NCBI GenBank assembly: GCA_000471925.1
Contig: CP006668.1
Coordinates: 1,116,001 to 1,180,000 of the forward strand
Length of the DNA stretch: 64,000 nt
Reading direction: 5' to 3'
Origin: Ralstonia pickettii DTP0602
Lineage (GTDB): Bacteria; Pseudomonadota; Gammaproteobacteria; Burkholderiales; Burkholderiaceae
Shown: positions 1 to 52,022 of the stretch, one piece after another
Numbering within the stretch: the first letter of the stretch is position 1
How the letters are laid out: each line of letters begins with the position of its first letter
The notes under the pieces: model-generated
Database searches by the model: none
What the model was told of the DNA's origin: nothing
The model's input: the letters and a program-made list of their open reading frames with translations, nothing else
Translations under genes and position numbers: made by a program

Positions 1-280
1 GGCTGGACGTCCGGCTAGGGGCGGGCGGTTCAGAATGAGACTGGCCCAGCCTTGCTTGAGGCTGGGAAAAACGGTCACTGCAGTCGAAGCGCTGGTGAGG
101 CCTGCGTAAGTAAACCCACGGTCGGTGGCGAGCGGACAGGGCGCTGGACTTTCTGTATTCTATTAGTTGATTGACAATGGCGTCGCCAGAGTTGTCACCC
201 CGCAAATCGCTCCATCTCCCGCGCCAGCAAATGCCCTGCGCGGTTGACGGTAAAAGCGACGGTAAGGCCTGAAGTCGATC

Positions 281-718
281 TCAGGCAATCCCTTTAACCA
301 CGTGGATTTGGGCGACCTGTTGATGATTGAGTGGGAAATCGGGGCCAAGGTCAACATACTCAACGTCATCGCAAAGCATGTGGTGAGCGGCGGTGAGCAT
401 GGAGGCGGCCACTGCGAGAATGGCCTTCTTGGCGCGCGGCGGTCCTTGATGCGCAGGATCTGGGCGCGCAGATTGCTGGTTTGACCCGTACCGCAGCCCA
501 GGCAGCCGTCATCAAAGCGATCTTGAGCCAGGTGCCGCTCTTGCGCACCTGCGTGCTGCGCCGCTTGCCGGCGCTCTCGTCGTTGCGCGGGCACAGGCCA
601 TCCCAGGACACCAGGTGGCCGGCATCGGAAAAGCGCGTCATGTCGAGGCCGATCTCCGCCAACAGGGCCTGAGCGGTCAAGTCACTAACACCGAGGATCG
701 TGGTCAGCAGGCGGGCGC
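281..718 (-). pseudogene. IS110-family transposase C-terminal relic
   Basis: Reading the minus strand from about 718, one frame gives the transposase_20 signature of IS110/IS1111 elements (ARLLTTILGVSDLTAQALL, then SWDGLCPRNDESAGKRRS and TWLKIALMTAAWAA). After the AWAAVRVK segment, near 480, the frame shifts. A second frame carries the usual C-terminus (KKAILAVAASMLTAAHHML, then DDVEYVDLGPDF and NHQQVAQIHVVKG) to a stop at 281-283. The N-terminal RuvC-like DEDD catalytic half is absent upstream of 718. The gene is therefore truncated and frameshifted and cannot make an active transposase. I could not define element ends. It marks past insertion activity at this edge of the window. Confidence 0.8.
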
Positions 719-1254
719 CCTATTGGATGGGCACCGATCGGAAAGGTCGGGCTGGAGCGGTACGCCATGGGCAATACTGCGGAAACGAAATGGCTGTCGT
801 TCTCTGTGGCGAAGTCGATTTCCTCTGTCCTGCTTATCCCAGTTTCACCATTCGGGCGTAACACGATGCGCGGGGGGGGCTACAACCTTCTTCTACTGAC
901 TCCTAGTTGGCCCCTGACCGCAAGGTCAAGCCATGAAGCCACGCCTTGGATGCTCGCAAACCGTTGTTGCTATTGACCTTCTGCCCGGGTGTCGTGAGAG
1001 GAATGACTTGACAAAACAGATAGTCAGTCGCACGCCAGCGCAGAGAGTGGTCCCGGGGCGGCAGGTGCATTCCCGGCGCGAGCCGGGGCCAGCTGTGCGG
1101 CGGCTTCGTCGAACTGTTGCCGGCGTGCCGGCATCGACCGGCCTTGGCGAGGGATCAATAGGAAAAGCCCCACTGCGGTGTGACGGCAACGGAGCTTCAT
1201 GATACGGAGGCCACGCGGGCCAGAGGACTTGCCTGTCCGATAGCCGGCAACCGC
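719..1254. other. intergenic stretch with no recognisable gene
   Basis: No reading frame here resembles a known protein on either strand. The short open frames (for example 926-1189 minus and 933-1202 plus) are arginine-rich antisense-type translations without convincing ribosome-binding sites. It is probably decayed sequence next to the IS110 relic. The first 280 bases of the window likewise show only a short hairpin near 48-70 (CCCAGCCT/AGGCTGGG) and no gene. Confidence 0.4.
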
Positions 1255-1539
1255 TTACCCGCCCGATGCGCCTTCGGCGGGCCGCTGGCCAAGGATCTCG
1301 CGGATGCGGGCGAGGTAGGTGTCGCCCACGGTGCGGTGCATGCGCGCCGCCTCGGCGGCGAACTGCTTGCGGCTGGGCGGGCGGATGCCCAGGCTGCGGC
1401 AGATCGTGGACAGGTACGGCTTGCGCTGGCCGCCCAGCCGCAGCGCCGCGGTCTGCAGGGCGGCATCGCCGATGCGCCCGCGCAGCCAGGCCAGCACTTG
1501 GCGGTCATAGTCGTTTTGCACACGGATGAGGTGTTCCAT
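1255..1539 (-). CDS. small uncharacterised protein, predicted SOS-regulated
   Basis: A 94-residue basic protein starting MEHLIRVQNDYDRQVLAWLR, with no family I can name. The middle (about residues 40-58, KPYLSTICRSLGIRPPSRKQ) could form a helix-turn-helix-like pair of helices. There is no signal peptide or membrane segment, so it should be cytosolic. The ATG at 1539 is favoured because GTGGGAG lies about 9 nt upstream. The upstream region holds two tandem LexA boxes (1553-1568 and 1572-1587), so expression is predicted to be DNA-damage inducible. An overlapping longer frame (1197-1553) lies in another phase and looks like a shadow. The role is unknown. A DNA-binding or repair-accessory function would fit the regulation but is inference. 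Confidence 0.7.
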   Translation of the reverse strand: MEHLIRVQNDYDRQVLAWLRGRIGDAALQTAALRLGGQRKPYLSTICRSLGIRPPSRKQFAAEAARMHRTVGDTYLARIREILGQRPAEGASGG

Positions 1540-1552
1540 CGCCGGGCTCCCA

Positions 1553-1568
1553 CTGTTTATCCATACAG
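1553..1568 (-). promoter_or_regulatory. LexA box, gene-proximal copy
   Basis: CTGT-TTATCCAT-ACAG matches the proteobacterial LexA consensus CTGT-N8-ACAG exactly in its half-sites. It ends 14 nt upstream of the ATG of the 94-aa gene. It is the first of two tandem boxes separated by 3 bp. Confidence 0.8.
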
Positions 1569-1571
1569 GTA

Positions 1572-1587
1572 CTGTAAATATATACAG
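1572..1587 (-). promoter_or_regulatory. LexA box, distal near-consensus copy
   Basis: CTGT-AAATATAT-ACAG, extended on both sides to TACTGT...ACAGTA (1570-1589), is almost the ideal SOS box with an AT-only spacer. Together with the adjacent copy it gives a 19-bp centre-to-centre tandem operator, so two LexA dimers could bind the same DNA region. Confidence 0.85.
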
Positions 1588-1644
1588 TATCTTTGGGGAG
1601 GCAAGAAAAGTCCGGCTTAGGTAGCGGAAGATGCCCGTAGGTCG

Positions 1645-3747
1645 CTAGTTGCGTGCTGTGTTCGCCACCTCAATCAGCGCATCCACCACCACGACGCCCT
1701 CGGGCCCGGCCATCACCGGGTTCAGGTCGATCGCGCGGATCGCGCCGCCAGCTTCGTGGATCAGGTTGCCAACCTGTACCGCCAGCCGGCACAGCGCCCC
1801 GATATCCACCGCGGGCTCGTTGCGCACGCCGCGCAGCAGCGGGGCAATGCGCAGGCCTGACAGTGCGCGTTCCACGTCGGCTGGCCGGCAAGGAGCCAGC
1901 AGCACGGCGGTATCGCGCAGCACCTCCACATACTTGCCGCCGTCGCCGATCACCAGCACCGCGCCGAACACCGGGTCCCAGTGTGCGCCAATCATGCATT
2001 CGCGCTGGCCGCGCGACATGCGCGCGACCACGATGCCTTCGCAACTGGCGCCCATGGCCTGCAGCGTGCGCGTCTGCGCGGCGAAGGCGCTGGCGACGGC
2101 CTCGGGGTCGTTACAGTGCAGGGCGACCAGACCGTGCTCGCTCTTGTGCGGCACTTGCGGCGAACTGGCCTTGACCGCCACCGGCGCGCCAATGCGGCGC
2201 CAGGCGGTGACCGCGGCATCGACGTCCTGGCAGAGATAGTGTTCGACTACCGGCATGCCGGCCGCCACCAGGCGCGCCAGGCTGGAGGCTTCGCTGAGCG
2301 TAGCGCCCGGCAATGCGCTGGCCTGCAGGGCAGGCGCCGGAGGCACGGGTGGCTCGCCCTCGGCCGCGATCTGCGTTAGCCGCTGCTGGTGCGACAACAG
2401 TTGCGCAAACGCGGCCAGCGCTTCGGCTGCGCTGGCGTAAGTCGGCACGCCGGCCTCGCGGAAGGCGTCGGCCACCGGCGGCTGCCAGACCGCCACGGCG
2501 ATGGGCTTGCCGGCGCTATCTGCAAAGGCCGCGGCATCGCGGGCGAAGCGCGGCACGTCGTAGCCCATGCCCGAAACCGGGATATCCAGCAGGAACAGGT
2601 CGGCGCTTGGGTCCTGCGCCACCACCGGCAGCACCTCGCCGAACAGCGCGCTGTTGGTCAGCAGCGCGGCGGTGACGTCGACTGGGTTGGCGGTGGCGGC
2701 AAAGCCCGGCAGGCGCTCGGCCAGCGCGGCCTGGGTGGCGTCGGACAGCGGGGCCAGCGACAGGCCGAAGGTCTGCGCCGCATCGGCCGCCATCACGCAG
2801 CTCGCGCCGGAATTGCTGACCACCACCAGCCGGCGTCCGCTCGCCTGCCAGTCGCGCAGGTAGAGCGGCGCGCAGCGCGCCAGCGCGTGTGCGTCATCGA
2901 CGCGCCAGATGCCGTGGCGCGACAGGAAGGCATTGACCGCGCGGTCCTCGTTGGCAATCGCGCCGGTGTGCGAGGCCGCGGCGCGCTGGCCGTCCTGCGA
3001 GCGCCCGGCCTTGACCGCCACCACCGGCACATTGCGCGCGCGCGCCACGCGCGCCGCCTCGGCAAGCACCTCGGGATCGGACAGGCTTTCCAGGTACAGC
3101 AGGATCAGCCGCACATCCGGATCGTGCGCGACCGCCAGCGCCAGTTCGCTGACGGTGATATCGGCCTGGTTGCCGGTGGCATGCATATGGCGCACGCCAA
3201 GGCCCTGCGCGCGCAGCAGCCCGTAGACCATCGCCGCCACGCCGCCGCTCTGGCTGACCACCGCGATCGGCCCGTCCTGCGGCGGCACCTCGATAAACAT
3301 GGTGGAGAAGCTGGCGATCGCGCCGCTGCCGAAGTTGGCCAGCCCCTGGCTGTTGGGGCCGACCAGCCGCAGGCCGCTGGCGCGCGCGGCGCGCACCATC
3401 TCGTCCTGCTGGCGCCGGCCTTCCGCGCCGGCCTCGCCGAAGCCCGAGGCGATCACGATGGCCGCCGCCACGCCCAGCCGCGCGCAGTCGTGCACGGCCT
3501 GCACCGCGGCATCGCCGGCGACGATGATGATGGCCAGCTCGGGCACTTGGGGCAGCGCGTCCAGCGTGGGATAGGCGCGCAGGCCCTGGATGGTGTCGCG
3601 CTGCGGATTGACCGGGTAGAGCGTGCCGGCGTAGCCGTGCGTCTTCATGTAGTGGGTGGGCCGGCCGCCGATCTTGTGGATGTTGTCGGAGGCGCCGATC
3701 ACGGCGATGGAGTGGGGAGCGAGCAGGGGCTGGAGCGTGGCAGTCAT
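1645..3747 (-). CDS. ADP-forming acetate/acyl-CoA ligase, fused alpha-beta
   Basis: 700 aa. Proteins of this family form an acyl-CoA from a carboxylic acid, ATP and CoA through a phosphohistidine. The CoA-binding Rossmann domain is at residues 10-110 (VIGASD at 16-21, YPVNP at 44-48). A succinyl-CoA-ligase-like domain follows at 155-300, with the phosphorylated histidine in ASHTGA near residue 260. The ATP-grasp domain fills the C-terminal part (GAPVAVKASSPQVPHKSEHG and VIGDGGKYVEVL are visible). The frame is open further upstream, but the ATG at 3747 fits the start of the CoA-binding domain. It is the last gene of the leftward operon, 31 bp after tctC. The likely role is activation of the imported acid, with the exact substrate unknown. 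Confidence 0.85.
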   Translation of the reverse strand: MTATLQPLLAPHSIAVIGASDNIHKIGGRPTHYMKTHGYAGTLYPVNPQRDTIQGLRAYPTLDALPQVPELAIIIVAGDAAVQAVHDCARLGVAAAIVIASGFGEAGAEGRRQQDEMVRAARASGLRLVGPNSQGLANFGSGAIASFSTMFIEVPPQDGPIAVVSQSGGVAAMVYGLLRAQGLGVRHMHATGNQADITVSELALAVAHDPDVRLILLYLESLSDPEVLAEAARVARARNVPVVAVKAGRSQDGQRAAASHTGAIANEDRAVNAFLSRHGIWRVDDAHALARCAPLYLRDWQASGRRLVVVSNSGASCVMAADAAQTFGLSLAPLSDATQAALAERLPGFAATANPVDVTAALLTNSALFGEVLPVVAQDPSADLFLLDIPVSGMGYDVPRFARDAAAFADSAGKPIAVAVWQPPVADAFREAGVPTYASAAEALAAFAQLLSHQQRLTQIAAEGEPPVPPAPALQASALPGATLSEASSLARLVAAGMPVVEHYLCQDVDAAVTAWRRIGAPVAVKASSPQVPHKSEHGLVALHCNDPEAVASAFAAQTRTLQAMGASCEGIVVARMSRGQRECMIGAHWDPVFGAVLVIGDGGKYVEVLRDTAVLLAPCRPADVERALSGLRIAPLLRGVRNEPAVDIGALCRLAVQVGNLIHEAGGAIRAIDLNPVMAGPEGVVVVDALIEVANTARN

Positions 3748-3778
3748 GACGAGGCAGGTTGCGGTTGAGCGGGAGGGA

Positions 3779-4771
3779 TCAGTCGATGGTTGCGCCGGAG
3801 GCCTTGACGACCTTGGCCCACTTGTCGATCTCCTGGCCGAGCAACTGCGCAGTCGCGGGCGGCGCCGTCCATTCGGCGGCAAAACCCTGCGTGGCAAAGC
3901 GCGCGCGCACGTCGGCATCGTCCAGTACGGCCTTGAGCGCGGTGCCGAGCGTGTTGAGGACCGCCGGCGGCGTGCCGGCCGGCGCCAGCAGCGCGTTCCA
4001 GGCGCTGGCCTCGTAGCCGGGCAGCCCGGCCTGCGCGACCGTGGGCGTGTCCGGCGCGGCAGGCGAGCGCGCGGCGCCGGTGACCGCCAGTGCCTTGAGC
4101 TTGCCGTCGCGCACGAAGGGCATGGCCGACAGCATGGTGTCGAACATCACCGTGGCCTGGCCGCCCATCACGTCCGTCAGCGCGGGCGCGCTGCCCTTGT
4201 ACGGCACGTGCGTCATGCGGGTGCCGGCCATGCTGTTGAACAGCTCGGCCGCGAGATGGGTGGACTGGCCGTTGCCGGAACTGGCGAAGGTCACCTGGCC
4301 AGGCTTGGCTTTGGCCAGCGCGATCAGCTCGGCGACGTTGCCGGCCGGCGTGGCGGGCGCGGTCACCAACACCAGCGGGCCGCGCGTCAGCAGGCTGACC
4401 GGCGCGAAGTCCTTGCGCGTGTCGTAGCCCGGCTTGCTGAACAGCGTCATGTTGATGGCATGGGCGGTGGTCGCCACCAGCAGCGTGTAGCCGTCGGGCG
4501 CGGCCCTGGCGACGGCCTCGGCGCCGATATTGCCGCCGGCGCCGGGGCGGTTCTCCACCACCAGCGGCTGGCCGAGCTTGTCGGACAGCTTCTGCCCGAC
4601 CACGCGGGCGACGATGTCGGTCGGGCCGCCGGGCGGGTAGGGCACCACCAGGCGGATGGGTTTGCTGGGCCACGCCTGTGCATGTGCCGCGGGGGCAGGA
4701 ACGGACAGGGCGGACAGGGCCAGCCAGGAAAGCAGGGCGAGCGCGTGCCGCCGGGATGGATTCGGTGCCAA
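3779..4771 (-). CDS. TctC/Bug-family periplasmic solute receptor
   Basis: 330 aa, an extracytoplasmic receptor of the tripartite tricarboxylate transporter type that binds a small carboxylate. Signal peptide at residues 1-31 (hydrophobic [13 protein letters not shown], cleavage after AHA). Family marks follow: [41 protein letters not shown] and LKALAVTG. I chose the TTG at 4771, with GGAGA 7 nt upstream, over the ATG at 4831, which adds a poor leader and has no ribosome-binding site. It lies between the DUF35 gene and the acyl-CoA ligase, so it probably captures the operon substrate. No TctA or TctB membrane genes are present. Confidence 0.85.
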
Positions 4772-4841
4772 GGGATGTCTCCGGTTGTGGATGCCGGCAG
4801 AAGTGGCTGAGGGCGCCCGCCGGCCGGGCACCGCGGCCGCG

Positions 4842-5195
4842 CTATTCGCGCAGGAAGCGCAGCAGCGTGCCTTCGCCGAAGCGCAGGAAGCCGGCGCGCA
4901 CGCGGTCGCCGATCGCCACGCCGGGTTCTGCGTGGCCCATTACCCGCGGGCCTTCGTCCAGCGTGGCCAGGACCAGCGTGTAGGGCGCCAGCGCGCGGAA
5001 GGCCTCGGTCGGTGCGCGGCTGATCTCGGTCACCGCGTGGACCGTGGCGAAGCCGCTGGCATCGTGCCAGCGCAGTTGCAGGCTGCCGCAGGCACGGCAG
5101 GCGTGGCGCTCGGGCGGCTGCCACGCGCCGCAGTCGTCGCAGCGCTGGTAGCGCACCACGCCGGCATTGAGGCCATCGGTGTAGGGATGGGTCAT
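4842..5195 (-). CDS. DUF35 OB-fold zinc-ribbon protein
   Basis: 117 aa. The N-terminal rubredoxin-like zinc ribbon has four cysteines (CDDC at 19-22 and CRAC at 33-36). A small OB-fold follows, with the family pattern [18 protein letters not shown]35 proteins are obligate partners of thiolase-like enzymes, for example the ChsH2 domain that supports the Ltp2 aldolase. The ATG overlaps the stop of the thiolase-like gene by 4 bp, so translation is coupled and a 1:1 complex is likely. No catalytic residues are expected. Confidence 0.85.
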
Positions 5196-6337
5196 CGCGC
5201 GCCCTCCAGGACCAGGCTCACATGGGACGACAGCACGCCGCCGTCGGCATGGAACAGCGCGCGGTGGCGCGGCGCCAGTTGTCGTTCGCCGGCACGGCCG
5301 GCCAGCTGCCGCGCGGCTTCCGCGAGATGCATCAGGCCGCCCGCGACGCCGGAATGCCCGAAGGCCAGCAGCCCGCCGTGCGTGTTGAGCGGCAATGCGC
5401 CGCCGCGGCTGAAGTCGCCGGCGCGCAGGCGCGCGTGCGCCTCGCCGCGCGCAGCCAGCCCGAGTTCTTCCAGCAGCATGACCAGGGTGATGGTGAAGGA
5501 GTCGTAGACCGCCAGGTAGTCGATGCCGCCGGCGTCGCCACCGGCTTCGGCAAAGGCCCGCCGTGCAGCATCGGCAGCGCCGGTCTGCATCACGTCGTCG
5601 ATCGCGCTCAGATGCTGGTGCCGGTGCGCCTGCCCGGCGCCGGCGATGCGCACCGGCGTGCCCGCGCCGGGCTCGGCCGACACCACCACCGCCACCGCGC
5701 CGTCGGAGATCGGGCAGCAGTCAGACAGCCGCAGCGGCGTGGCGATCGGGCGCGACGCGCGCGCGTCGGCGGCGGACAGCGGCTCGCGCAGGTGCGCATC
5801 GGGATGCGTGCCGGCATGCTCGCGCATCAGCACGGCAAAGTCCGACAGCGCATCGGCATGCATGCCGGTCTCGTGCAGATAGCGCGAGGCCAGCAGCGCG
5901 TAGTAGGCCGGCACCGAGGCGCCGTTGGGCACCTCTGCATGCGGCTCGCCGACCTGCGCCAGCGTCTGGATAGACTGGTCGCGGCTCTGGCCGCTGAGGC
6001 GATTCTCGCCGGCAGCCACCAGCACGTGGCGGCAGCGGCCGGCACGCACCAGCTCGTGCGCCAGCATCGCCATCACGCCCCCGGTAGCACCGCCTGCGGC
6101 CACGCCGTGTGCGTAGGCCGGCGTGAGCGAGGCGTATTCGCAGAAGCGGTCGGCCAGCATCAGGTGCGGCAGCGTGGTGGCATAGCCGCACAGCACGCCG
6201 TCGATATCGCTGCGGGCCAGGCCTGCATCGGCCAGCGCCGCATCGGCAGCCTGCGCCATCAGCGTCAGCGGCGTGCTGCCCTCGAGGCGGCCGAAGCGGG
6301 TGTTGCCGGTGCCGCGTACGTAGGTCCGGATTGCCAT
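5192..6337 (-). CDS. thiolase-superfamily protein without catalytic cysteines
   Basis: 381 aa with the lipid-transfer/SCP-x thiolase fold. The position of the nucleophilic cysteine in the N-terminal half reads VAAGGATGG (about 79-87), so glycine replaces it. The C-terminal region reads GHSGVAGG and then HADGGVLSSHVS, with the second catalytic cysteine also missing. A conserved tyrosine motif, YDSFTITLVMLLEELG, is present. This pattern is known from Ltp2-type proteins, which with a DUF35 partner carry out retro-aldol cleavage rather than Claisen condensation. The downstream DUF35 gene overlaps by 4 bp. I infer a carbon-carbon lyase acting on a beta-hydroxyacyl-CoA. The alternative is a non-enzymatic thiolase-like scaffold. 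Confidence 0.8.
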   Translation of the reverse strand: MAIRTYVRGTGNTRFGRLEGSTPLTLMAQAADAALADAGLARSDIDGVLCGYATTLPHLMLADRFCEYASLTPAYAHGVAAGGATGGVMAMLAHELVRAGRCRHVLVAAGENRLSGQSRDQSIQTLAQVGEPHAEVPNGASVPAYYALLASRYLHETGMHADALSDFAVLMREHAGTHPDAHLREPLSAADARASRPIATPLRLSDCCPISDGAVAVVVSAEPGAGTPVRIAGAGQAHRHQHLSAIDDVMQTGAADAARRAFAEAGGDAGGIDYLAVYDSFTITLVMLLEELGLAARGEAHARLRAGDFSRGGALPLNTHGGLLAFGHSGVAGGLMHLAEAARQLAGRAGERQLAPRHRALFHADGGVLSSHVSLVLEGAR

Positions 6338-6338
6338 G

Positions 6339-7577
6339 TCAGTGCTTGAGCAGCGCGCACTGCGACTTCGATGCCGGCATGAAGGCCTGGTCGCCCGGCA
6401 CGGTGGCCAGCACCTTGTAGTAGTCCCACGGGTATTTGGATTCCGCCGGCGACTTGACCTCGAACAGGTACATGTCGTGGATCATGCGGCCGTCCTCGCG
6501 AATGCGGCCGTTCTTCGCAAAGAAGTCGTTGATCGGCGTCGACTTCATCTTCTTCATCACCGCCGCGGTCTCGTCGGTGCCGGCTGCCTGCACGGACTTC
6601 AGGTAGTGCATCACCGACGAGTAAGCGCCAGCCTGGCTCATGTTGGGCATCTTCTTCAGCTTGTCGAAGTAGCGGCGCGACCAGGCGCGGGTGGCGTCGT
6701 TCATGTCCCAGTAGAAGGCTTCGGTCAGCACCAGCCCGGCCGCGGTCTTCAGGCCGATTGCGTGGATATCGTTGATGTAGAGCAGCAGGCCGGCCATGCG
6801 CTGGGTGTTGTTGCGCGTGAGGCCGAACTCGGAGGCGGCCTTGATCGCGTTGACGGTGTCGCCGCCGGCGTTGGCCAGGCCGACCACCTGCGCCTTGCTC
6901 GCCTGCGCCTGCAGCAGGTACGAGGCAAAGTCGCTGGCGCCGATGGGATGGCGCGCGGCACCCAGCACCTTGCCGCCGTTTTCGTTGATCACGGCGGTGG
7001 CGGAGTCCTGCAGCGTATGGCCGAAGGCGTAATCCGCCGTCAGGAAGAACCACGACTTGCCGCCACGCTGGACCATGGTGCGCGCGGTGGTGTTGGCGAG
7101 CGCATAGGTGTCATAGGCGTAGTGCACCGACACCGGCGTGCACAGGTCGTTGGTGATGCGCTCGGTGCCCGGCCCGGAGAACACCACGATGTGGTTCTTC
7201 TGCTTTGCGACTTCGAGCACCGCCAGCGCCGGCGCCGAGGCGGCGACATCGAGGATGGCATCGACATTGGCGGTGTCGAACCATTCGCGCGCCTTGTTGG
7301 CGGCGATATCAGCCTTGTTCTGGTGGTCGACCACCACCAGCTCGATCTTCTTGCCCAGCACCTTGCCGCCAAAGTCGTCGATCGCCATCTGCGCGGCGGT
7401 GGCGCTGCCGCGGCCGGTGACGTCGGCATACAGGCCGCTCATGTCGAGCAGCATGCCGATCTTGACCACATCGTCCGAGATCGCGGCCTTTGGCTGCTGC
7501 GCGTGCGCGCTGCCGCAGGCGAGCGCGGCGGCGATGGCAAGGGCACTGGCCGCCCTGCGGCAAATCGAATAGTCCAT
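6339..7577 (-). CDS. ABC transporter substrate-binding protein, Leu/Ile/Val type
   Basis: 412 aa. Signal peptide at 1-27 (AASALAIAAALACGSAHA), followed by a Periplasmic_6 (LivK-like) fold: VVKIGMLLDMSGLYADVTG, VDAILDVAASAPALAV, and ADYAFGHTLQDSA near the middle. Such proteins deliver amino acids, urea or aromatic/aliphatic acids to ABC permeases. None of those permease genes is nearby, so it must share components encoded elsewhere. The ATG at 7577 is preferred to the one at 7619 because GGGGAGA lies 7 nt upstream. It ends 1 bp before the start of the thiolase-like gene, so it belongs to the same operon. Confidence 0.85.
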   Translation of the reverse strand: MDYSICRRAASALAIAAALACGSAHAQQPKAAISDDVVKIGMLLDMSGLYADVTGRGSATAAQMAIDDFGGKVLGKKIELVVVDHQNKADIAANKAREWFDTANVDAILDVAASAPALAVLEVAKQKNHIVVFSGPGTERITNDLCTPVSVHYAYDTYALANTTARTMVQRGGKSWFFLTADYAFGHTLQDSATAVINENGGKVLGAARHPIGASDFASYLLQAQASKAQVVGLANAGGDTVNAIKAASEFGLTRNNTQRMAGLLLYINDIHAIGLKTAAGLVLTEAFYWDMNDATRAWSRRYFDKLKKMPNMSQAGAYSSVMHYLKSVQAAGTDETAAVMKKMKSTPINDFFAKNGRIREDGRMIHDMYLFEVKSPAESKYPWDYYKVLATVPGDQAFMPASKSQCALLKH

Positions 7578-7605
7578 GTAGTCTCCCCTGGCTTGTTGTC
7601 GTTGG

Positions 7606-8661
7606 CTATACCGTGGCAATCGGCGTCACTGGCGAACCCACCGCGCCGGGCAGGCGCAGCGGCGGGGCGGTGAGCTGAAAACGCGTGCGCCCGTTGGCAC
7701 GCAGCCACTCGGCCAGCTCGCGCAGGTACCACAGCTCGCCCAGCGGCAGGCCCAGCTTGAACAGGCAGTGGTGGTGCAGCGGCAGTAGCGGGTGGCTCTT
7801 GTCGCCATCGGGCGCGGGGCGGGCCGGGTAGCGCTCGACCGCGTAGTTGTCGGCGATCAGCGCGGCGATGCCGGCATCGGTGATCCAGTTCAGCAGCTTG
7901 TCGTCGCGGCCGTCGAGCACACTGCAGCTGTGGTGCAGCAGGGCCTCGTCGGGCTGGCGCTGCATCGACAGCACCACCTCGGCAAAGCCGGTGCGCAGCA
8001 GCAGCATGTCGCCTGGCTCGACCGCCACCTTGTCCGCGTCCATCGCGCGCATCAGGTCGTCATAGCCGACGTTGCGGAAGTCCGTGCCGAAGGTGTGCGC
8101 CAGATCGACCAGCACGCCGCGGCCCTGCATGCCCTTGACCGCGAAGTTCTCGATGCCCAGCGCCTGGGCGGCGCTGTGGTCGTGGCCGCAGGGATGGGCG
8201 GCGAAGTGGTCGTCCTCGGCATAGTCCACCGGGCCGACGATATGCTCGTTGGCGCGGTAGCCGTTGTAGTAGACGCGCTCGGGCCGGCCGTCGCCGTCCG
8301 CATCGAACAGCGCGCCCACGTGCGCCAGCGAATCCCATTGCGTGCTGTACTGCAGGCACAGCAGCACCTGGTCGTCGCTGATGACGTCGGTGGCGGCGGG
8401 ATCGACCTTGGCCAGCGGGAAGTTGACGTAGGGGATGTCGTCGCGGAAGGTCGGGCGCAGCACCGGCGGGTGGCGGCGCGGGTTGAGCTTGTTGCCGCCG
8501 GGGTAGTCCAGCGGCAGCGACAGGCAGAAGCTGATGCCGGCCTGCACCTCGCGCGCACCCTTGACCACCTGCTCGGGGCCGATCAGGTTGACGCGGCCAA
8601 GCTGGTCGTCAGGGCCGAAGTCACCCCAGTTGGAACCTTGCGGACGTTGCTTCCAGCGCAT
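7606..8661 (-). CDS. putative cyclase-family metal hydrolase
   Basis: 351 aa, cyclase family (PF04199, related to kynurenine formamidase and isatin hydrolase). These are manganese or zinc enzymes that hydrolyse cyclic or formylated amides or lactones. Visible family segments are GPDDQLGRVNLIGPEQV near the N-terminus, TQWDSLAHVGALFDADGDG in the metal-site region, and GRGVLVDLAH and GDMLLLRTGF later. It is the longer non-KynB subtype. It sits 3 bp from the IclR stop and upstream of the binding protein, so it is probably the first enzyme gene of the operon. The true substrate is unknown. Confidence 0.8.
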   Translation of the reverse strand: MRWKQRPQGSNWGDFGPDDQLGRVNLIGPEQVVKGAREVQAGISFCLSLPLDYPGGNKLNPRRHPPVLRPTFRDDIPYVNFPLAKVDPAATDVISDDQVLLCLQYSTQWDSLAHVGALFDADGDGRPERVYYNGYRANEHIVGPVDYAEDDHFAAHPCGHDHSAAQALGIENFAVKGMQGRGVLVDLAHTFGTDFRNVGYDDLMRAMDADKVAVEPGDMLLLRTGFAEVVLSMQRQPDEALLHHSCSVLDGRDDKLLNWITDAGIAALIADNYAVERYPARPAPDGDKSHPLLPLHHHCLFKLGLPLGELWYLRELAEWLRANGRTRFQLTAPPLRLPGAVGSPVTPIATV

Positions 8662-8664
8662 CGG

Positions 8665-9477
8665 TCATGCCTCCTCTCGCGTGCGTGGCCGGGTGGCCGG
8701 CCGGTCTGTGGTGGAGATGGCGCCCCCGTGGGAGCGCCAGTTGGCGCAGACGGCGTCTGCCTCGCGCCGCAGCGCGCGCGCCATGGCGGCCTCGCGGCCG
8801 GTAATGCGTTCATTGAGGGCGGCGATGCTGAGCGCGCCCAGCGGGTAGCCGTCCGGGCCCGGCAGCGCAATGGCGATGCCGCCCATGCGCTCGACCACCA
8901 CGTCCAGCAGCACCGCGTAGCCGCGCTCGCGCGTGGCCTGCACATGGCCGAGCAGCATCTCGCGGCTGAAGCGGGGGTAGCGGCGCATGGCAGGGGCGAT
9001 GCCGTCGAGCATGGCATCGACCTCCACATCGGGCAGGGCGGCCAGCAGCGCCAGGCTGCCGGCGCCGATGCCGAGCGGCCGGCGGCTGCCGATCTCCAGG
9101 TAATTGGCGCGGATCGGGAAGGTGCCCAGCCGCAGTTCGATGCAGACGGATTCGCAGCCGCTCGGCACGGACAGGATCGCGCTGTCCTCGAAGGCATTGG
9201 CCAGCCGGATCAACGCCGGGCGCACCAGCGGGCGCAGGTCGGTGCGCTGCAGCGTGGCGGCATGCAGGGCCAGCCATTCGGGGCCCGGCGTGAAGGCCTT
9301 GGTGGCGGGGTCGCGCTGCACCAGGCCTTCCGCCGTCAGCGTCTCCAGCAGGCGCAGCGCCGAAGCCTTGTCGACGCCGGCGGCCAGCGCCAGGTCGGTC
9401 AGGCGGCTGTTGCGCACGTCGGTCAGCGCGCGCAACAGGCGGCAGGCCTTCTGCAGCGAGGTGCTCGGGGTGGTCAC
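8665..9477 (-). CDS. IclR-family transcriptional regulator
   Basis: 270 aa. An N-terminal winged HTH (about 5-65, NSRLTDLALAAGVDKASALR) is followed by the IclR effector domain (about 80-245, with ILSVPSGCESVCIE and LGIGAGSLALLAALP). The frame is open to 9702. The GTG at 9477 is the better start because AGGAGA lies about 9 nt upstream and the HTH starts directly after it. It begins the leftward operon ending with the acyl-CoA ligase, so it probably controls that operon and itself. Imperfect GTTT...AAAC dyads lie just upstream (9496-9515, 9571-9587). Confidence 0.85.
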   Translation of the reverse strand: MTTPSTSLQKACRLLRALTDVRNSRLTDLALAAGVDKASALRLLETLTAEGLVQRDPATKAFTPGPEWLALHAATLQRTDLRPLVRPALIRLANAFEDSAILSVPSGCESVCIELRLGTFPIRANYLEIGSRRPLGIGAGSLALLAALPDVEVDAMLDGIAPAMRRYPRFSREMLLGHVQATRERGYAVLLDVVVERMGGIAIALPGPDGYPLGALSIAALNERITGREAAMARALRREADAVCANWRSHGGAISTTDRPATRPRTREEA

Positions 9478-51069: not shown

Positions 51070-51085
51070 CTGTATAAATATACAG
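51070..51085 (+). promoter_or_regulatory. LexA box of the imuA operon
   Basis: CTGT-ATAAATAT-ACAG, extended TACTGT...ACAGGTA, matches the SOS consensus and lies 52 bp upstream of the imuA ATG. LexA repression of imuA-imuB-dnaE2 is established in related proteobacteria. Confidence 0.9.
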
Positions 51086-51137: not shown

Positions 51138-52022
51138 ATGACTGCGCAATCGTACGCAGCCCCACCCACGGCGGCGGAGGGATTTCTCTTCCCTGCGCCG
51201 ACCCCAGCCGCGCCAGTCCCGGCCACGCGCCAGCAGGCGCTGTCGGCGCTCGAGCAGCGCTACCCCGGGCTCTGGCGGGCCGGCCAGCTGGGCCGTGCCG
51301 GCAGCGAGTCGGTATGCCCGACCGGGTATGACGCGCTGTCGGCGGAGCTGCCGGGCGGCGGCTGGCCGGCGGGTGGGCTGACCGAGCTGCTGACCACGCA
51401 GGGCGGGGCGGGCGAGCTGCGCCTGCTGCTGCCGGCGTTGCGCACGCTGGCCGGAGCAGGGCGCCGCATCGCGCTGGTGGCGCCGCCGTACCTGCCCAAT
51501 GCGATGGGGCTGGCGGCGGCCGGGCTGCCGGCGCGCCAACTCTACTGGGTGCGCCCACCCGCCGGCACCGCCAGGGCCGCGCAGGCCGACATGCTGTGGG
51601 CGGCCGAGCAGGTGCTGCGCAGCCAGGCCTTCGGTGGCGTGCTGGTATGGCTGCCGACGGCCCGGCCCGAGGCGCTGCGCCGGCTGCAGGTGCTGGCGCA
51701 GGGCGGCGACGCGGTGGTCTGGGCGCTGCGCCCGGCCGCGGCGCTGCGCGAGTCGTCGCCGGCGGTGCTGCGGCTGCTGCTGGCGCCGCAGCCCGGCAAT
51801 AGGCTGTCGATCACCTTCCACAAGCGGCGCGGGCCGGTGCGGGATACCCCCTTGCTGCTGCGCCTGGACGGGATGGAAGCGGCCACGCGCACGGCCGCCT
51901 GGCCGTCGCCTGCGCGGGCGCCTTCGTCCTTGTCCTCTTCTCCGTCTTCTTCCGATGCCGTACTGGATCGCGGTGCACCTGCCGCGCCTGCCCCTGGACG
52001 CACTGCAGCCCACCTGGCCTGA
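51138..52022 (+). CDS. imuA: ImuA, SOS mutagenesis RecA-like protein
   Basis: 294 aa. ImuA is a RecA/SulA-related protein that works with ImuB and DnaE2 in damage-induced mutagenesis. Visible: ALEQRYPGLWRAGQLGR, GYDALSAELPGGGWPAGGLTELL (about 58-80, the RecA-like entry), GAGELRLLLPALRTLAGAGR, RRIALVAPPYLPNAMGLAA and QAFGGVLVWLPTARPEALRR. The Walker A motif is degenerate, as is usual for ImuA. It heads the SOS operon. The ATG at 51138 lies in the expected place after the LexA box, and the 3' end overlaps imuB by 68 bp. Confidence 0.85.
   Translation: MTAQSYAAPPTAAEGFLFPAPTPAAPVPATRQQALSALEQRYPGLWRAGQLGRAGSESVCPTGYDALSAELPGGGWPAGGLTELLTTQGGAGELRLLLPALRTLAGAGRRIALVAPPYLPNAMGLAAAGLPARQLYWVRPPAGTARAAQADMLWAAEQVLRSQAFGGVLVWLPTARPEALRRLQVLAQGGDAVVWALRPAAALRESSPAVLRLLLAPQPGNRLSITFHKRRGPVRDTPLLLRLDGMEAATRTAAWPSPARAPSSLSSSPSSSDAVLDRGAPAAPAPGRTAAHLA

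Follow-up and report, generated by a model that had tools for sequence, protein, structure and literature searches.

In this study, the 94-aa frame at 1255-1539 of the window (the whole 64,000-nucleotide stretch of DNA that was analysed) was identified as a CppA-family protein gene behind tandem LexA boxes. Sequence comparison established that its product is homologous to CppA of Neisseria-type plasmids, that the boxes are conserved with the gene among relatives, and that a QxSLF peptide is conserved in particular lineages of the family. We propose that the gene encodes an SOS-induced, DNA-binding protein acting at replication forks, a reading to which we give a probability of roughly 0.45.

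The 94-aa gene and its LexA boxes

The gene lies on the minus strand (1255..1539) on replicon C2 (2.9 Mb), starts with ATG, and encodes a protein of 10.5 kDa with a computed pI of 11.05. An initial annotation of this DNA had listed a 94-aa gene with a basic product at this position, and both the open frame and the basic character were borne out. Comparison of the frame with 8 relatives gave a dN/dS of 0.09-0.31, which indicates that it is coding; judged by these ratios, the gene is under purifying selection. It adjoins a large CoA-binding-synthetase-like frame and transposase-like remnants, both named by eye. The transposase-like fragments are broken, lie downstream of the gene within window positions 1-1000, and look IS110-like.

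Read toward the gene on the minus strand, the upstream region holds a -35-like hexamer TTGCCT (1599..1604), 16 bases, a -10-like hexamer TATATT (1577..1582) under LexA box 1 (1570..1589), LexA box 2 (1553..1568), a GGGAG (1547..1551) that probably serves as ribosome-binding site 7 bases ahead of the start, and the ATG at 1539. Box 1, distal from the ATG, is a perfect TACTGT-N8-ACAGTA whose inner CTGT-N8-ACAG (1572-1587) reads CTGTAAATATATACAG. Box 2, which ends 13 bases before the ATG, is an exact CTGT-N8-ACAG with the sequence CTGTTTATCCATACAG. Both boxes are conserved in relatives. The two CTGT-N8-ACAG copies and the extension of the distal one to a palindrome had been described in the initial annotation and were found exactly so. 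The count of exact CTGT-N8-ACAG in the window (3 observed vs 0.79 expected; the third is the imuA box at 51070-51085) is only modestly unusual, since 2 of 100 shuffles also reached 3, and the 20-base pattern with up to 3 mismatches is no commoner in the window than chance (6 vs 5.07 expected).

The initial annotation had raised the question of whether tandem boxes occur upstream of Burkholderiaceae homologues. Eighty related loci were examined: 30 Cupriavidus-type loci (L032-L061; titles mostly Cupriavidus, with one 'Ralstonia sp.', one 'Burkholderiaceae bacterium', and one MAG called Rhodoferax) and 50 others from Burkholderia, Paraburkholderia, and one Caballeronia. Two exact boxes were present within 150 bp upstream of the start in all 30 Cupriavidus-type loci, and a tandem with at most one mismatch per box was kept in 44 of the 50 others. 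In the same 150 bp, 43 of these 50 hold at least one exact box and six hold two exact boxes; the sole Caballeronia locus, L111, has one. Of the 74 tandems, 64 show a spacing of 18 or 19 bp. The rest of the same 80 loci, mostly coding, contains 2 exact boxes in 630,580 bases.

The boxes sit on the promoter. TTGNNN stands at an equal distance in all 30 Cupriavidus-type loci, and box 1 covers the -10 of TTGNNN-N16-TATATT in 29 of them, L044 having TATCCT instead. The search pattern places no constraint on the eight spacer bases of a box; over these 30 loci their mean column identity is 0.98 in box 1 and 0.78 in box 2; the identity of 0.99 obtained for box 1 when rows are anchored on the exact box is inflated. 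The MAFFT-aligned upstream flank of the same loci mostly stays at about 0.3-0.4, reaches 0.50 and 0.55 in a pair of short, gap-rich blocks, and is 0.35 without gaps.

A wider set of 214 loci gave a similar picture for the 203 that could be parsed: a tandem was found in 186 and at least one exact box in 183, or in 131 and 128 of 145, respectively, after 58 duplicates were removed. In the 11 loci outside the parsed set, tblastn finds family members throughout. A tandem is missing in 17 of the 203 parsed loci, and several loci have one box only. L104, L147, and L244 hold no box with up to one mismatch within 170 bp; the same is true of L098 and L235, whose boxes sit further up. Paraburkholderia humisilvae has two family members, L076 and L104, one with LexA boxes and one without. 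The surroundings of the gene are variable. Its upstream neighbour (1645-3918) is near the gene in 3 of the 80 loci, and, gene-overlapping frames aside, no frame of window positions 1-9000 was matched in more than 15 of the 80 when flanks of up to 4 kb were considered. On this comparison, the gene travels alone with its boxes. The boxes persist beside the gene in loci whose flanks and neighbours differ, which supports LexA control, and from these alignments the 94-aa frame is almost certainly a real, LexA-controlled gene.

The motif is also placed in front of known SOS genes of this genome. The strict pattern TACTGT-N8-ACAG has 13 distinct sites in 8.1 Mb (18 rows, palindromes being listed twice), and the reversed control pattern gave 2 + 2 rows in the same genome. 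The lexA gene, recognized by its LexA DNA-binding domain at C1:2851465, is preceded by tandem boxes at 2851318 and 2851338, 20 bp apart. The recA gene (L119, named by eye) has one strict-pattern site in front. The imuA-imuB-dnaE2 operon begins with an imuA-like frame on the plus strand (51138..52022), 49.5 kb from the 94-aa gene, and has one strict-pattern box (51070..51085, no strand), which supports the use of the motif in this genome; imuA and imuB were named by eye, and the dnaE2 frame matches DNA_pol3_alpha. Since sites of this pattern precede lexA, recA, the imuA operon, and a helicase-type frame, the pattern is in use in the genome. The initial annotation had named a LexA-controlled imuA operon 49.5 kb away and had deduced that LexA of this type is active here; the operon and its own box were found, and the lexA tandem with the recA and imuA boxes points the same way. 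The tandem of the 94-aa gene resembles that of lexA itself.

Several other boxes were observed in the course of this search. The LexA box at L132 (C2:1382396) separates a gene for a KfrA_N protein from the helicase-type frame, which was named by eye and agrees with the 'Helicase c2' LexA prediction in the available text of PMC3323433. At L135 (C3:413132), on the third replicon, a short imuA-like frame named by eye (1151-1501, minus strand) carries a LexA box of its own; it seems to be a second copy that has been truncated. At L123/L125 (C1:1420363 and 1421357), two perfect LexA palindromes are separated by about 1 kb, one of them adjoining an 85-aa zinc-ribbon-like frame that is another candidate SOS gene. 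At L134 (C2:2860378), a 127-aa frame (1535-1918, plus strand) starts directly after a LexA box.

LexA regulation of such a gene may have been predicted before. In the available text of PMC3323433 (Sanchez-Alberola et al. 2012), a hypothetical gene 'hypA' is predicted to be LexA-regulated and is described as having no homologues outside multi-chromosome beta-proteobacteria. The 94-aa gene is likewise a hypothetical gene with predicted LexA sites, and the beta-proteobacterial restriction fits; hypA is probably this gene. That text gives no family, structure, clamp motif, or function for hypA. The initial annotation had proposed an undescribed SOS gene. The candidate SOS gene stands, and its regulation is doubtful as a novelty, given the fit to the hypA prediction. 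The available text of PMC10944698, which deals with SOS mutants of B. cenocepacia, does not mention such a gene, and our literature search found no expression or phenotype report for the 94-aa gene in the texts available.

Relationship to CppA and distribution

The initial annotation had also stated that the protein matches no family, which did not hold. A search at E <= 0.001 returned 69 homologues of the 94-aa protein, all labelled PF25860.1, and a plasmid search matched 29 records, of which four distant ones are annotated 'cryptic plasmid protein A' (CppA). The window protein shares 36% identity with CppA of Deefgea (E 2e-8) and 36% with CppA of N. lactamica (E 7e-4). Deefgea CppA bridges to gonococcal CppA (43%, E 3e-13), and 143 of the 170 records matched by a search with it are from Neisseria. 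The CppA proteins of pJD1, pNL01, and related plasmids are similar in length to the window protein (80-85 aa in four) and have with it a common pattern, N.RD.R...WL...G...........G.R.PY.SN..K.LG....P. In an alignment of 14 sequences, M1, N9, D12, W18, L19, G24, P41, S44, L50, P55, and L83 are invariant. By these comparisons, the 94-aa protein is homologous to CppA of Neisseria-type plasmids over most of its length.

Other searches with the family gave little. Pfam, PHROGs, and NCBIfam searched with the window protein returned no match, and family members scanned one by one against libraries drew scattered weak names. Type IV Cas11 (PADLOC), matched by 8 of 78 members with a best E of 5.7e-4, was set aside as weak. 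A phage origin was rejected as well: searched with the window protein by tblastn, 50,697 phage records yielded matches at E 0.4 and 1 only. A KfrA_N likeness was seen by eye and is not claimed.

The plasmid copies differ from the chromosomal gene. Unlike the latter, the CppA-type copies L112-L116 have no LexA box (at up to one mismatch) in the 200 bp upstream, and in L112-L115 the C47-R48 pair of the window protein is missing and the C-terminal part is shorter. The plasmid copies L117 (Caballeronia) and L118 (Paraburkholderia) carry one and two exact LexA boxes, respectively. Five of the seven plasmid contexts adjoin replication-initiator, ParA/ParB, or toxin-antitoxin genes: L112 adjoins a replication initiator; L113, on a plasmid that also bears rep and mob genes, adjoins a RelE/ParE-type toxin; L114 Xre/RES genes; L117 VapC, with ParB 2 kb off; and L118 ParA. 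No rep, par, or toxin-antitoxin neighbour was found for L115 and L116. The window copy has no plasmid location beside rep, par, mob, or toxin-antitoxin genes, which is a common, not strictly defining, feature of CppA.

A CppA-like N-terminal domain joined to a T5orf172/GIY-YIG-type domain was observed in Chitinivorax, Chromobacterium, and others (L148, P0149-P0155). The family profile is matched by the N-terminal part of L148 (E 1.1e-5), and the remainder matches a T5orf172 domain (21.1 bits, cut-off 20). L148 has 7 homologues, three labelled PF25860.1, one labelled T5orf172, and one named GIY-YIG nuclease family protein. Such a fusion is consistent with a DNA-related core. As far as the available texts go, the gonococcal cryptic plasmid occurs in about 96% of gonococcal strains and genes of CppA's plasmid are induced anaerobically (PMC3032703), and a frame with 39% homology to gonococcal CppA lies near ccdAB in Burkholderia terrae (PMC4122924). 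The available literature on CppA, PF25860, and Cupriavidus LexA with the sliding clamp gives no function for the CppA family.

Within the family Burkholderiaceae, matches at E <= 0.001 were obtained in 200 of 398 sampled genomes and in 10 of 25 genera, a count that includes a few weak, uninspected matches (down to E 4.7e-4). Among the matches listed, 57 of the 59 genomes of the organism's own genus are represented. The order-level figure of 11 of 300 genomes overstates the range, because only five of these matches are members; L146 is interrupted by a stop, and L147 alone lies outside Burkholderiaceae. The remaining order-level matches are the fusion-like frame L148 and L149-L153, which were rejected as members because they are LuxR-type response regulators (L149 alone was domain-scanned). 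Genomes G379 and G386 have up to four family matches, suggesting extra plasmid or island copies. The gene could be a selfish passenger, a damage-induced maintenance gene that helps a plasmid or integrated element and has no host role on chromosomes. Plasmid homologues, several copies in some genomes, and neighbours that are not conserved agree with such an origin, but the gene is matched in nearly every listed genome of its own genus, is under purifying selection, and maintains its boxes, and we consider the passenger explanation very improbable.

The helical core and the terminal peptide

The AlphaFold2 model of the window protein (mean pLDDT 88.1) has helices at residues 10-23, 25-35, and 43-50, followed by a long helix at 57-84. 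The predicted three-helix, perhaps HTH-like core corresponds to codons 10-50 (1390..1512, minus strand), in which family alignments show the conserved residues DR..L.WLR, GD, and KPY.S..CR. The initial annotation had suggested a possible HTH, for which weak profile matches were obtained and no Pfam or Foldseek match. Searches with the family profile bring up LuxR-type HTHs at E 1.1e-4 to 6.2e-4, residues 11-54 or 11-55 covering the LuxR-type helices with weak scores, and phrog_2440 ('transcriptional regulator') is matched weakly by 18 of 78 members (best E 0.0026). No solved fold matches the model. Solved structures searched by sequence gave none that was convincing (two at E 1.1-1.2), Foldseek of the model against the PDB gave no match at E <= 0.001 (one at E 7.5), VIA-align gave no convincing structure match, and the best of the viral structure models had an E of 3.3, none being convincing. 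In the model, helices 1-3 with KPY.S..CR may weakly resemble an HTH.

A second feature of the family is a terminal peptide. The 59 closest homologues (P0001-P0059) were split by the closeness of their cores to P0042 or to the window protein into metallidurans-type and window-type sequences. Q-x-x-L-F is present in 20 of the 22 metallidurans-type homologues, in 18 of them at the very C-terminus, vs 1 of the 37 window-type homologues. The two metallidurans-type homologues lacking it have foreign-looking tails, and the window protein has no QL[S/D]LF-like peptide. In the 20 motif-bearing proteins, position 2 is G in 11, A in 7, and T in 2, and position 3 is Ser in 15. The tail is disordered in the P0042 model. 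Over 228 homologue rows (P0001-P0148 and 80 locus frames, partly overlapping), 32 carry Q-x-x-L-F on tails of varied length, 28 of them at the very C-terminus, and shuffling the tails of these 32 rows gave 0.021 terminal matches on average. These rows were found by searching for Q..LF itself, so only the recurrence of Gln, Leu, and Phe and not their identity counts as evidence, and the count over all 22 metallidurans-type rows is the fairer one. The motif codons vary synonymously in 11 loci; therefore the peptide itself is what is kept.

The peptide is not confined to one end. Among the 203 parsed loci, it stands at the C-terminus in 27 and at the N-terminus in three. In L098 (Burkholderia paludis), L235, and L238, the latter two placed in Burkholderia's genus group, the protein starts M-Q/H-QGSLFK ahead of the usual EHLVR. 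The leader of these three is longer, and tandem LexA-like sites with 1-2 mismatches each are set back from the start codon by about 110 bp more than in related loci. L103/L232 have a decayed form of the N-terminal QGSLF. A tree was built from 192 rows; L147, locus frames above 140 aa, identical cores, and any row in which the core pattern was missing were left out. It has few columns and is poorly resolved, and was for that reason not used to date gains; in it, the C-terminal motif needs four changes, two of them forced by well-supported branches.

The Q-x-x-L-F end resembles, by its sequence, the beta-sliding-clamp docking peptide, whose consensus is QL[S/D]LF and typically lies at the extreme terminus (available texts of PMC3716654 and PMC4549789). 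Homologues of clamp binders in the same genome have comparable peptides: a DinB-type frame ends QLELFD, a Pol II-type frame ends QMALFPQ, and DnaE holds QVSLF. Position 2 is L, M, or V in these known-type binders, in contrast to G, A, or T in the CppA-family peptide, and the small residue may weaken clamp binding. The family has LexA control in common with Pol IV/DinB, UmuC, and ImuB, as well as, in some lineages, a terminal Q-x-S-L-F. It differs from them in that the protein has no polymerase domain, and in that the motif is missing in the window lineage and most Burkholderia-type loci. Clamp docking is no general requirement, since the window protein, 36 of the 37 window-type homologues, and most parsed loci have no such motif.

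SOS proteins are often short-lived, and the QxSLF end might be a degradation tag (e.g., for ClpXP) that clears the protein after the SOS response instead of docking it to the clamp. Terminal hydrophobic residues behind a disordered tail would suit a degron. However, the Gln, the L-F pair, the Ser preference (15 of 20), and the use of either terminus or a slightly internal position fit the QL[S/D]LF consensus better, as given in the available part of PMC3716654, which leaves the degron improbable.

A role in transcription was also considered. CppA may be a small transcription or copy-control repressor, and the 94-aa protein a plasmid-type DNA-binding regulator domesticated on the second chromosome under LexA, acting on a few promoters with no role at the fork. 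The location of five of the seven plasmid copies beside rep, par, or toxin-antitoxin genes, the weak HTH-like matches, and the strong conservation of KPY.S..CR are consistent with it. Such a regulator leaves the conservation of QxSLF at either end unexplained, however, and the region past helix 3 varies in length and sequence and is ill-suited to hold a recognition helix. We regard this explanation as unlikely.

Small stand-alone SOS proteins elsewhere are often cell-division inhibitors, and the protein might do SulA's job. No SulA (PF03846) match was found in the genome by a search whose control found E. coli, which leaves room for such a role. The window protein itself has no Pfam match, PF03846 included. 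Homology to a plasmid protein with no known division link, the very basic composition, the absence of an obvious membrane segment (judged by eye), and the clamp-like motif in some relatives all speak against an inhibitor of division, and we hold it to be quite improbable.

Proposed role at the replication fork

Returning to the reading preferred here, an SOS-induced protein acting at replication forks, the gene would be a stand-alone member of the LexA (SOS) regulon. LexA bound on the -10 and directly downstream of it would shut the gene off, and DNA damage would switch it on. The product would be a small, basic CppA-family protein with a compact and probably DNA-binding helical core, through which it would act on DNA, most likely at or near replication forks during damage. 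In lineages with a QxSLF tail or head, the beta sliding clamp would hold the protein at the fork; the window lineage has no docking peptide, and therefore the core would have to act there without it. Once at the fork, the protein could retard the replicative polymerase or push it off, or else help ImuB/DnaE2 to gain access.

More tentatively, and with odds we put at about one in three, a plasmid DNA-binding protein of CppA type may have become, in Burkholderiaceae, a core SOS effector at the fork, to which separate lineages added a clamp peptide at opposite ends. Small replication modulators of this kind, under LexA control and tethered to the clamp, would then form a new class.

In sum, there is a good case for regarding the 94-aa gene as a candidate new helper in the bacterial response to DNA damage. 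If the proposed role is true, a large and important bacterial family keeps in its SOS regulon a conserved gene of no known function, whose product likely works at the sliding clamp. With docking peptides at its two ends in different lineages, this small protein would clearly illustrate how recruitment to the replication machinery can occur repeatedly, and the finding would offer a first functional clue to CppA of the gonococcal cryptic plasmid.
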